Shown here in pieces: positions 39,539 through 41,474 of a DNA stretch of 64,000 bases. Each line of letters opens with the position of its first letter. The first letter of the stretch is position 1. Under the pieces are notes generated by a model that searched no databases, was not told where the DNA came from, and saw only the letters and a list, made by a program, of their open reading frames with translations. Source of the stretch: Patulibacter sp. (GTDB taxonomy: Bacteria > Actinomycetota > Thermoleophilia > Solirubrobacterales > Solirubrobacteraceae); NCBI RefSeq assembly GCF_030655195.1, contig NZ_JAURWA010000090.1, forward strand, positions 1-64,000, written 5' to 3'. The position numbers and the translations under genes were made by a program.

Positions 39539-39820
39539 CTAGCGGCCGCCGGCGACGGCGGGGAGGATCTGCAGCTCCTGGCGGTCCTGGACCGCGGTCC
39601 CGAGGCCGTCGCCGAAGCGGATGTCCTCGCCGTCGAGGTAGACGTTGACGAACCGGCGGAGGTCGCCCTCGGAGTCCGTCAGGCTGCCCCGCAGCTCGGG
39701 GTGGGCGGTGAAGAGGCTCTCCAGCGCCGTGCCGACGGTGGTGCCCTCCGCCTTGACCGTGCCTTCGCCGCCGGTGGCGGCGCGCAGCTGGGTGGGGATC
39801 TTGAACGTGACTTCGGCCAT
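39539..39820 (-). CDS. ThiS/MoaD-like sulfur carrier protein
   Basis: 93 residues, a ubiquitin-like fold: AEVTFKIPTQLRAATGG at the start, GTTVGTALESLFTAHPELRGSL, FVNVYLDGEDIRFGDGLGTAV and LQILPAVAGGR at the end. ThiS/MoaD-type carriers end in Gly-Gly, which is adenylated and converted to a thiocarboxylate. Here one Arg follows Gly-Gly, so a protease would have to remove it, as described for CysO- and HcyS-type carriers. The ATG overlaps the TGA of the thrC-like gene by one base, so the two are coupled and under the SAM riboswitch. Confidence 0.9.
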   Translation of the reverse strand: MAEVTFKIPTQLRAATGGEGTVKAEGTTVGTALESLFTAHPELRGSLTDSEGDLRRFVNVYLDGEDIRFGDGLGTAVQDRQELQILPAVAGGR

Positions 39821-41106
39821 CAGACCGACACCTCCGTGCGGTGTTCCGCGGTCGCTTCGAACTGATCGAAGTTGGGATCGATCTCGCGGCACTCGAAGGT
39901 GCCCCGGACCGCATCCAACGTCTTGAGGCCCTCGCCCGTGATCACGATGACCACGCGCTCGTCGGCGCCGATCCGGCCGGCGTCGGCGAGCTTCTTGAGC
40001 ACCGCCGTCGTCACCCCGCCGGCGGTCTCGGTGAAGATGCCGGTCGTCCGGGCGAGCAGGGCGATTCCCGCGCGGATCTCGTCGTCGGTGACCTGGTCGA
40101 TCGTGCCCGACGTCTTGCGCGCCAGCTCGATCGCGTAGGGGCCGTCGGCGGGGTTGCCGATCGCCAGCGACTTGGCGATCGTGTTCGGCTTGACGGGCCG
40201 GCAGACGTCCTGGCCCTGCTCGAACGCGTGGGCGACGGGGTTGCAGCCGGCCGCCTGGGCGCCGCTCATGATCGGCAGCGCCTGCTCGGCGTCGAGCAGC
40301 CCCAGGTCCTGCCACTCCTGGAAGCCCTTGCCGATCTTCGTGAACAGCGACCCGGACGCGATCGGGGCGACGATGCGGTCGGGCATCTGCCAGCCGAGGT
40401 CCTCGGCGATCTCGTACGCCAGGGTCTTCGAGCCCTCGGCGTAGTACGGGCGCATGTTGACGTTCACGAACGCCCAGTCGGGCCGCTCGCCGGCGATCTC
40501 GGTGCAGAGCCGGTTGACGTCGTCGTAGTTGCCGCGGACGGTCACGACGGTCGCGCCGTAGATGCCCGTCGCGAGGATCTTCTGCTCCTCGAGGTCCGCC
40601 GGGATGAAGACGTAGACGGGCATCCCGAGCGCGGCGCCGGCGGCGGCGACGGCGTTGGCGAGGTTGCCGGTCGAGGCGCAGGCCAGCGTCGTGAAGCCGA
40701 GCTCCTTGGCGCGGGCGGCGGCGACGGCGACGACGCGATCCTTGAAGGAGTGCGTCGGGTTCGCGGCGTCGTTCTTGACCCAGACCTCGCGGAGGCCGAG
40801 CTCCCGGGCGAGGTTGTCCGCGCGGACCAGCGGGGTCACGCCGGCGGGCAGGCCCTCGAGGCCCGCGGTCCCGCCGGGGCCGCCGGCGGGGAGGACCGGG
40901 ACGCGGTCGACGGGCAGGAAGTCGGCGTAGCGCCAGATGTTCTGCGGGCCCGCCTGGATGCGCCGCTTGATCGCCTCGGGATCGCCCTTGGAGGGGTTGT
41001 CCTCGTACTTGACCTCGAGCGGGCCGAAACACCGCGAGCAGACGAAGTGCGCCTCGAGCGGGTACGTGCTGCCGCACTCGCGACAGGTCAGGGAACTGGC
41101 AGTCAT
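39820..41106 (-). CDS. thrC: Threonine-synthase-like PLP enzyme under a SAM riboswitch
   Basis: 428 residues from ATG 41104-41106, 10 nt after AGGAG. The N-terminus has a zinc-ribbon-like C-x2-C...C-x2-C (TCRECGSTYPLEAHFVCSRC). The PLP fold type II core follows, with the cofactor Lys in NPTHSFKDR, ASTGNLANA, IPADLEEQK and a C-terminal TETAGGVTTAVLKKL. Threonine synthase makes threonine from O-phosphohomoserine. Coupling to a sulfur carrier and SAM control suggest it could instead make homocysteine from O-phosphohomoserine. An ATG at 41173-41175 lies inside the riboswitch and is unlikely. Confidence 0.88.
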   Translation of the reverse strand: MTASSLTCRECGSTYPLEAHFVCSRCFGPLEVKYEDNPSKGDPEAIKRRIQAGPQNIWRYADFLPVDRVPVLPAGGPGGTAGLEGLPAGVTPLVRADNLARELGLREVWVKNDAANPTHSFKDRVVAVAAARAKELGFTTLACASTGNLANAVAAAGAALGMPVYVFIPADLEEQKILATGIYGATVVTVRGNYDDVNRLCTEIAGERPDWAFVNVNMRPYYAEGSKTLAYEIAEDLGWQMPDRIVAPIASGSLFTKIGKGFQEWQDLGLLDAEQALPIMSGAQAAGCNPVAHAFEQGQDVCRPVKPNTIAKSLAIGNPADGPYAIELARKTSGTIDQVTDDEIRAGIALLARTTGIFTETAGGVTTAVLKKLADAGRIGADERVVIVITGEGLKTLDAVRGTFECREIDPNFDQFEATAEHRTEVSV

Positions 41107-41125
41107 AGGGGCTGAACTCCTGGTC

Positions 41126-41157
41126 GGTCCTCCGCCGAAAGGGTGTGGCGGAGGTCC
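41126..41157 (-). promoter_or_regulatory. Hairpin between the SAM aptamer and the start codon (expression platform)
   Basis: GGACCTCCGCC and GGCGGAGGACC pair along 11 positions with one mismatch, ending 5 nt before the AGGAG (41117-41121) of the thrC-like gene. There is no T-run, so control is more likely at ribosome access than by transcription termination. Ligand-dependent switching is inferred. Confidence 0.5.
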
Positions 41158-41171
41158 GTACTGGTCCAGCC

Positions 41172-41267
41172 ACACATCTCTCTGGAATTGGCACCTCTCC
41201 GCGTCGGCGATTTCGCGGTGGTTGCCGGGGGTTCGACGGGCCAGTCCCTCCCCCCCTCTGGATGTGT
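41172..41267 (-). promoter_or_regulatory. SAM-I (S-box) riboswitch aptamer
   Basis: Minus-strand P1 is ACACATC (41261-41267) pairing with GATGTGT (41172-41178). Inside lie the SAM-I core GAGGGACTGGCCCG, CCCCCGGCAACC and GGTGCCAATTCCAG in the right order and spacing, separated by two variable stems. The motif normally senses S-adenosylmethionine and lowers expression of methionine synthesis or uptake genes. Here it precedes a thrC-like gene with a sulfur carrier. Confidence 0.92.
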
Positions 41268-41334
41268 CTATGCGTGCTGCCGGGGCAGCGTATCAAGGAG
41301 CCCGCGACGTCCGGGCTGAGCAGCCGCTTCGCCC

Positions 41335-41474
41335 GGGTGCCCCGAGCCGCGCGACGTCCGGCGCGGACCGAAGTACGACGCTCGGGGCGGGGCCCGGTCC
41401 TTCCGGGTGCCCCGAGGCGCGCGACGTCCGGCGCGGACCGGAGCACGACGCTCGGGGCGGGGCCCGGCCTTCTC
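41335..41474. repeat. 70-bp direct repeat, two copies
   Basis: Copies start at 41335 and 41405 (GGGTGCCCCGAGCCGCGCG versus GGGTGCCCCGAGGCGCGCG) and differ at only a few positions. Each contains CCCCGAG and CTCGGGG as an inverted pair, so each could fold into a long hairpin just after the methyltransferase gene (stop at 41476, minus strand). They may act as terminators between this gene and the riboswitch transcript. Confidence 0.75.

Follow-up and report, generated by a model that had tools for sequence, protein, structure and literature searches.

The locus described here lies on the minus strand of a 64,000-nucleotide stretch of Patulibacter DNA (the window) and comprises, from upstream to downstream, a SAM-I (S box) riboswitch aptamer at 41171–41268, a gene for a PLP enzyme resembling threonine synthase (ThrC, 428 residues) at 39820–41106, and a gene for a sulfur carrier (93 residues) at 39539–39820. 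The stop codon of the ThrC-like gene and the start codon of the carrier gene overlap by one base, forming the sequence TGATG. The original prediction, a SAM riboswitch placed before a ThrC-like gene and a carrier ending in GGR, was right in both coordinates and anatomy, with the three elements now assigned to RF00162, TIGR00260, and PF02597, respectively.

The ThrC-like protein, assigned by profiles and alignment to the MetM type, begins with a segment that carries a CxxC/CxxC pair. It scores 284.7 bits with the TIGR00260 thrC model (cut-off 167.1) and is also above the cut-off of PF00291, whereas the cysKM model gives 45.5 bits against a cut-off of 344. With its thrC score above the cut-off and far above those of the cysK/M models, this enzyme is not a PLP partner of the CysK/CysM type. 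The carrier is MetO/CysO-like, as judged from profiles and solved relatives, and its C terminus reads ILPAVAGGR, with a single Arg after the Gly-Gly pair. Its translation, taken from one codon upstream of the ATG, reaches 54.3 bits with the PF02597 ThiS profile, above the cut-off, and 67.9 bits with NCBIfam SAMP1 (cut-off 60). The best solved relatives are 3dwg, listed as a 9.5 kDa culture filtrate antigen, which we take to be CysO, and 4n6e, a ThiS/MoaD family protein.

Riboswitch and leader

The aptamer matches Rfam RF00162 over its full length with 73.3 bits, compared to a gathering score of 44.4. No other match turned up in the assembly (4.55 Mb) when 150 of its 184 first-look candidates were put to the model, and seven stretches taken from elsewhere in the genome contain no riboswitch at the gathering score. 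The gap of 64 nt between the aptamer and the start of the ThrC-like gene contains a candidate expression platform, the hairpin CCTCCGCC/GGCGGAGG (41129–41154, minus strand), which is present in the minimum-energy fold. This fold has a z value of −2.19, and equally good folds were obtained in 8 of 200 shuffles. Its eight pairs are retained in all seven aligned Patulibacter-type leaders, and in three of the seven a C-G pair is replaced by T-A, although this one covarying pair is modest evidence, since the seven leaders belong to close relatives. The 5' arm of the hairpin together with its loop (GCCACAC) can pair instead with the 3' strand of the aptamer helix P1 (GTGTGGC) over 7 bp, an alternative possible in 7/7 leaders. 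Judged from these sequences, the P1 pairing and the platform hairpin are mutually exclusive, like those of known SAM-I switches.

A Shine–Dalgarno-like AGGAG (41117–41121, minus strand), recognized by sequence and fold, is located 10 nt before the ATG. Two of its five bases are paired in the window's minimum-energy fold, by a stem that relatives conserve poorly, hence control at the level of translation is proposed for this leader tentatively. An intrinsic terminator was also considered and rejected, as the T run after the hairpin is absent. Farther upstream, between a methyltransferase-like gene and the riboswitch, two near-identical head-to-tail copies of ~70 bases each were seen by eye at 41330–41470, each containing a GC-rich inverted pair (CCCCGAG...CTCGGGG).

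MetM-type proteins and their carriers

Comparison of 107 MetM-type sequences, including that of the window, with 30 ThrC sequences (L093, L101, and L103 having been dropped for a stop or for length) reveals 42 group-specific columns, of which 12 fall within an N-terminal segment absent from ThrC and 30 are substitutions between fixed residues. The CxxC/CxxC pair of the N-terminal segment is present in 104/107 MetM-type proteins and in none of the 30 ThrC sequences. The two groups belong to one fold family, with many residues in common, and Lys122 of the SFKDR motif, the PLP lysine, is shared by both groups. Several motifs that bind the substrate and the PLP phosphate in the structures of ThrC are, however, replaced in the MetM group, although TIGR00260 scores above its cut-off: STGNT becomes STGNL, NSxNxxRxxGQK becomes NxNxRxxYxEGSK, GNAGN becomes ASGS, AIRIG becomes SLAIG, and EPxSA becomes ETAGG.

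The protein of the window shares 94% and 90% identity in the best segment with those of P. minatonensis and P. americanus, respectively. A scan of named genomes, with peptide patterns that favour close relatives, yielded 80 loci kept out of 104. Of these, 60 bear the title Patulibacter, Thermoleophilaceae, Solirubrobacteraceae, or Solirubrobacterales; the remainder comprise records titled Actinobacteria or Actinomycetota, records from other genera, three of Bifidobacterium breve, and one of Chlamydiae. Both core motifs of the riboswitch are found within 400 nt upstream of the MetM gene in 79 of the 80; the remaining locus has 26 nt of upstream DNA. The covariance model confirmed the riboswitch in 14 of 15 loci (14 from the 80 plus that of Nonomuraea), the one miss being the locus with 26 nt of upstream DNA. 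By pattern, a carrier reading frame follows the MetM gene in 70 of the 80 relatives.

With 29 further loci added, giving 109 MetM-type loci, a tblastn search placed a carrier directly downstream in 98 (97/107 after removal of the duplicates within the pairs L045/L107 and L056/L106). Seven of the carriers had first been flagged as non-adjacent on account of the chosen frame ends, whereas their match coordinates place all 98 directly downstream. The arrangement of riboswitch, MetM gene, and carrier is not due to chance, and the expectation that the same set would recur in other Actinobacteria is borne out both here and by the 34 riboswitches found at 54 MetM genes in the phylum sample described below. 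A carrier was not detected near the MetM gene in 11 of the 109 loci (L056, L059, L061, L065, L068, L106, L124, L127, L131, L132, and L133, with L056 and L106 representing one locus); these may use a carrier encoded elsewhere. Some of these 11 loci still have the riboswitch.

The C termini of the 98 carriers vary: 75 end with a bare GG, eight with GGR, four with GGC, two with GGS, and four with other short tails, while five are cut or unreadable. The GGR tail, pointed out in the original prediction, was therefore rejected as a hallmark of the system. Because most tails stop at GG, the Arg of the window's carrier is a local trait; among the six Patulibacter-titled loci with a readable carrier, four end with GGR, one with GGC, and one with GG.

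In three Streptomyces-like genomes of 7.9–9.7 Mb (G023, G104, and G123) the MetM protein is 57–58% identical to that of the window, and metM and metO are followed by a cold-shock gene, with groEL also present after the latter in one fetched stretch. The MetM protein of Nonomuraea gerenzanensis is 52% identical and its gene is found in the same arrangement, the carrier and the start of the cold-shock gene having been read by eye. These four copies served as stand-ins for the characterised MetM of S. albulus. The Nonomuraea record with the SAM riboswitch, metM, metO, and the cold-shock gene (L164, NZ_LT559118.1) is 11.85 Mb long and filed as plasmid I, yet looks like a chromosome. Four records titled Chlamydiae or Bifidobacterium breve (L057, L062, L093, and L096) carry MetM loci 67–71% identical to the Solirubrobacterales-type protein, and their organism labels look wrong.

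Sulfur and threonine genes in the genome and in the phylum

The assembly that contains the window is 94.9% complete, and candidates for the three partners expected elsewhere in it by the original prediction, namely a second true thrC, an activating E1-like enzyme, and a JAMM protease, were all found. The second ThrC, on contig C18, is 39% identical to the MetM-type protein and adjoins a homoserine kinase gene that scores above the thrB cut-off, with hom-like and lysA-like genes, named by eye from their translations, upstream. The genome is therefore equipped with a dedicated synthase for threonine and with the means to form O-phosphohomoserine. Contig C191 (L017:1338–8563) encodes a rhodanese-E1 protein that exceeds the cut-off of PRK08762. 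The next gene specifies a CysO-like carrier that ends with GGAA; a cysteine synthase above the cysKM cut-off and a JAMM gene, the one PF14464 match in the genome, lie within a few kb. RecQ-like and kinase-like genes are interleaved with the sulfur genes of this contig.

Absence of a canonical homocysteine route is typical of hosts of MetM and MetO, although not defining, and it does not hold for this genome, in which a MetY gene (above the TIGR01326 cut-off) adjoins MetX (PRK00175, 424.5 against 331). Since the two lie side by side, MetM is not the sole predicted route to homocysteine here. Downstream of them are cysH-like and cysD-like genes, named by eye. Also present is a CBS-like gene, likewise named by eye, beside a gene of the cystathionine gamma-synthase/lyase type that is below the cut-offs.

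The distribution of these genes was followed in a sample of 149 actinobacterial genomes that was kept unchanged from search to search. The best MetM-type matches fall into two separate classes: 54 genomes score at least 372 bits, and none of the others exceeds 233 bits. An own-type ThrC (E 1e-60) is found in 52 of the 54 MetM genomes, and was not found in G056 and G094 at that limit. RF00162 is located directly upstream of MetM in 34 of the 54, including 12/12 in the class to which the window belongs and one in G130 that scores weakly and lies at the end of its contig. The riboswitch was not detected at the other 20 MetM genes, two of which are at contig ends. A PF02574 homocysteine methyltransferase domain, which was the domain searched for rather than MetE, is present in 44 of the 54 MetM genomes and was not found in ten.

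Other homocysteine enzymes were counted in the same genomes, namely MetX in 59 (called at E 1e-30, with best matches all of at least 371 bits, the TIGR01392 cut-off of 500 being reached in 0/149), MetA in 19, and HcyBio in 37. At least one of MetM, MetX, MetA, and HcyBio occurs in 139 of the 149. MetX accompanies MetM in 14 of the 54 genomes and MetA in three, while MetX, MetA, and HcyBio are all absent from 37. HcyBio is found in 0/54 genomes with MetM compared to 37/95 without it (Fisher p 4e-9), or, counted by family, in 0/18 compared to 13/29 (p 6e-4). One or more of MetX, MetA, and HcyBio occur in 17/54 genomes with MetM compared to 85/95 without it (p 3e-13). All of these p values are too small, because the sampled genomes are related and shared ancestry inflates significance. 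This distribution is the pattern expected of a homocysteine-forming enzyme.

Predicted reaction and its alternatives

Comparison with known systems places the locus close to one of them. In Mycobacterium, CysO, CysM, and Mec also comprise a carrier of this type, and the Patulibacter genome encodes an E1-rhodanese and a JAMM protein as well, but the PLP partner at the locus is ThrC-like rather than CysM, and a separate CysO-like set is present on C191. The HcyS/HcyD/HcyF system of Wolinella shares the use of a carrier thiocarboxylate as the sulfur donor for homocysteine, with MetY as its PLP enzyme and O-acetylhomoserine as substrate; unlike it, the Patulibacter operon includes no JAMM or E1 gene. 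From canonical ThrC the MetM proteins are set apart by the 30 substituted columns and the N-terminal CxxC/CxxC segment. In Streptomyces, according to what is reported of the 2024 work of Hasebe et al., thiocarboxylated MetO and MetM turn O-phosphohomoserine into homocysteine. A paper that cites this work (PMC12172450) names MetM as the homocysteine synthase identified in Streptomyces by Hasebe et al. and places a SAM riboswitch upstream of metM in S. albulus, so that the ThrC-like enzyme, the downstream carrier, and the upstream riboswitch are features in common with the Patulibacter locus, for which the formation of homocysteine from O-phosphohomoserine is predicted. The differences are the placement of the Patulibacter locus in Thermoleophilia, its 57–58% identity to the Streptomyces-like copies, the GGR end of its carrier, and the additional MetX and MetY in its genome.

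The locus is thus very probably a metM–metO operon under the control of a SAM-I riboswitch, which would make homocysteine from O-phosphohomoserine and carrier-bound sulfur. The anatomy, the riboswitch, the paralogy to ThrC, the candidate partners in the genome, and the distribution in the phylum are observed here, whereas we infer the reaction from the Streptomyces work, and likewise the clipping of Arg, the E1 that serves the carrier, and the action of the switch. In the proposed sequence of events, Arg would be clipped from the end of MetO, the JAMM protein of contig C191 being the presumed protease, after which the E1-rhodanese enzyme would adenylate and thiocarboxylate MetO at its Gly-Gly end. 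On the PLP of MetM, phosphate would leave O-phosphohomoserine and the carrier-bound sulfur would be added in place of water, yielding homocysteine. High SAM would lower expression. The original prediction had offered this as a candidate pathway, but MetM and MetO of Streptomyces are already published with the predicted reaction, and the Patulibacter locus extends that system to another lineage. What this analysis adds is the branch in Thermoleophilia, the presence of two predicted routes with the riboswitch found at MetM, and the distribution.

The score above the TIGR00260 cut-off would also suit another threonine synthase, perhaps one with deaminase activity as well, whose position next to a carrier gene is incidental. 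Such an enzyme has a cyanobacterial precedent: PMC12172450 describes MetM homologues in cyanobacteria, among them one of Microcystis that lies next to a metO-like gene with a sulfur-carrier annotation. As described there, this homologue forms threonine from O-phosphohomoserine and also deaminates threonine, while in the MetM-type assay it gave only an unidentified peak near methionine, and methionine in the cells did not rise. Of the published results, this one speaks most strongly against a single function shared by all MetM-type proteins. In Patulibacter, however, a second threonine synthase is not favoured, because the canonical thrC lies beside thrB and an own-type ThrC accompanies MetM in 52/54 genomes; the SAM riboswitch, the replaced ThrC motif residues, and the lack of overlap with HcyBio also argue against it, making this explanation very unlikely.

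The carrier's best solved relative, the mycobacterial CysO-type 3dwg, would fit the synthesis of cysteine or of another sulfur amino acid, as carried out by CysM with CysO, yet this is not favoured given the separate set of CysO-like carrier, cysteine synthase, and JAMM match on C191; with a riboswitch that senses SAM and a protein that scores as ThrC far above the cysK/M models, it appears extremely improbable. If instead homocysteine were formed from O-phosphohomoserine and free sulfide, with the carrier serving another enzyme, the 11 of 109 MetM loci without a detected carrier would be accommodated, but a carrier directly downstream in 98/109, the one-base overlap at the Patulibacter locus, and the reported role of MetO as donor make this highly improbable as well.

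About one-third of the sampled Actinomycetota (54/149) thus carry a gene that passes for threonine synthase by score but probably encodes a homocysteine synthase, and many annotations would be corrected. The lack of overlap with HcyBio and the riboswitch on MetM support the Streptomyces pathway well beyond Streptomyces.

A further, more doubtful proposal concerns the coexistence of two routes in Patulibacter. It is possible that MetX/MetY, at which no riboswitch was detected in this genome, and MetM/MetO, alone switched by SAM, operate side by side, that the carrier cannot mature until its Arg is removed by a JAMM protease that also serves the CysO system, and that one protease and one E1 might thereby determine how much protein-bound sulfur goes to cysteine and how much to methionine. 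In the 14 sampled genomes with both MetM and MetX, the riboswitch accompanies MetM every time (14/14) and MetX has none within 700 nt (0/14). Among all 59 MetX genomes it lies within that distance in 14, all of them without MetM, although the 700-nt limit can miss a riboswitch placed before a metY–metX operon. In G108 a riboswitch is found 1.47 kb upstream of MetX, perhaps before such an operon. This genome, a class-level relative, contains four SAM riboswitches: besides the one at MetM, a pair lies around the MetX region and the fourth precedes a PF02574 homocysteine methyltransferase gene.
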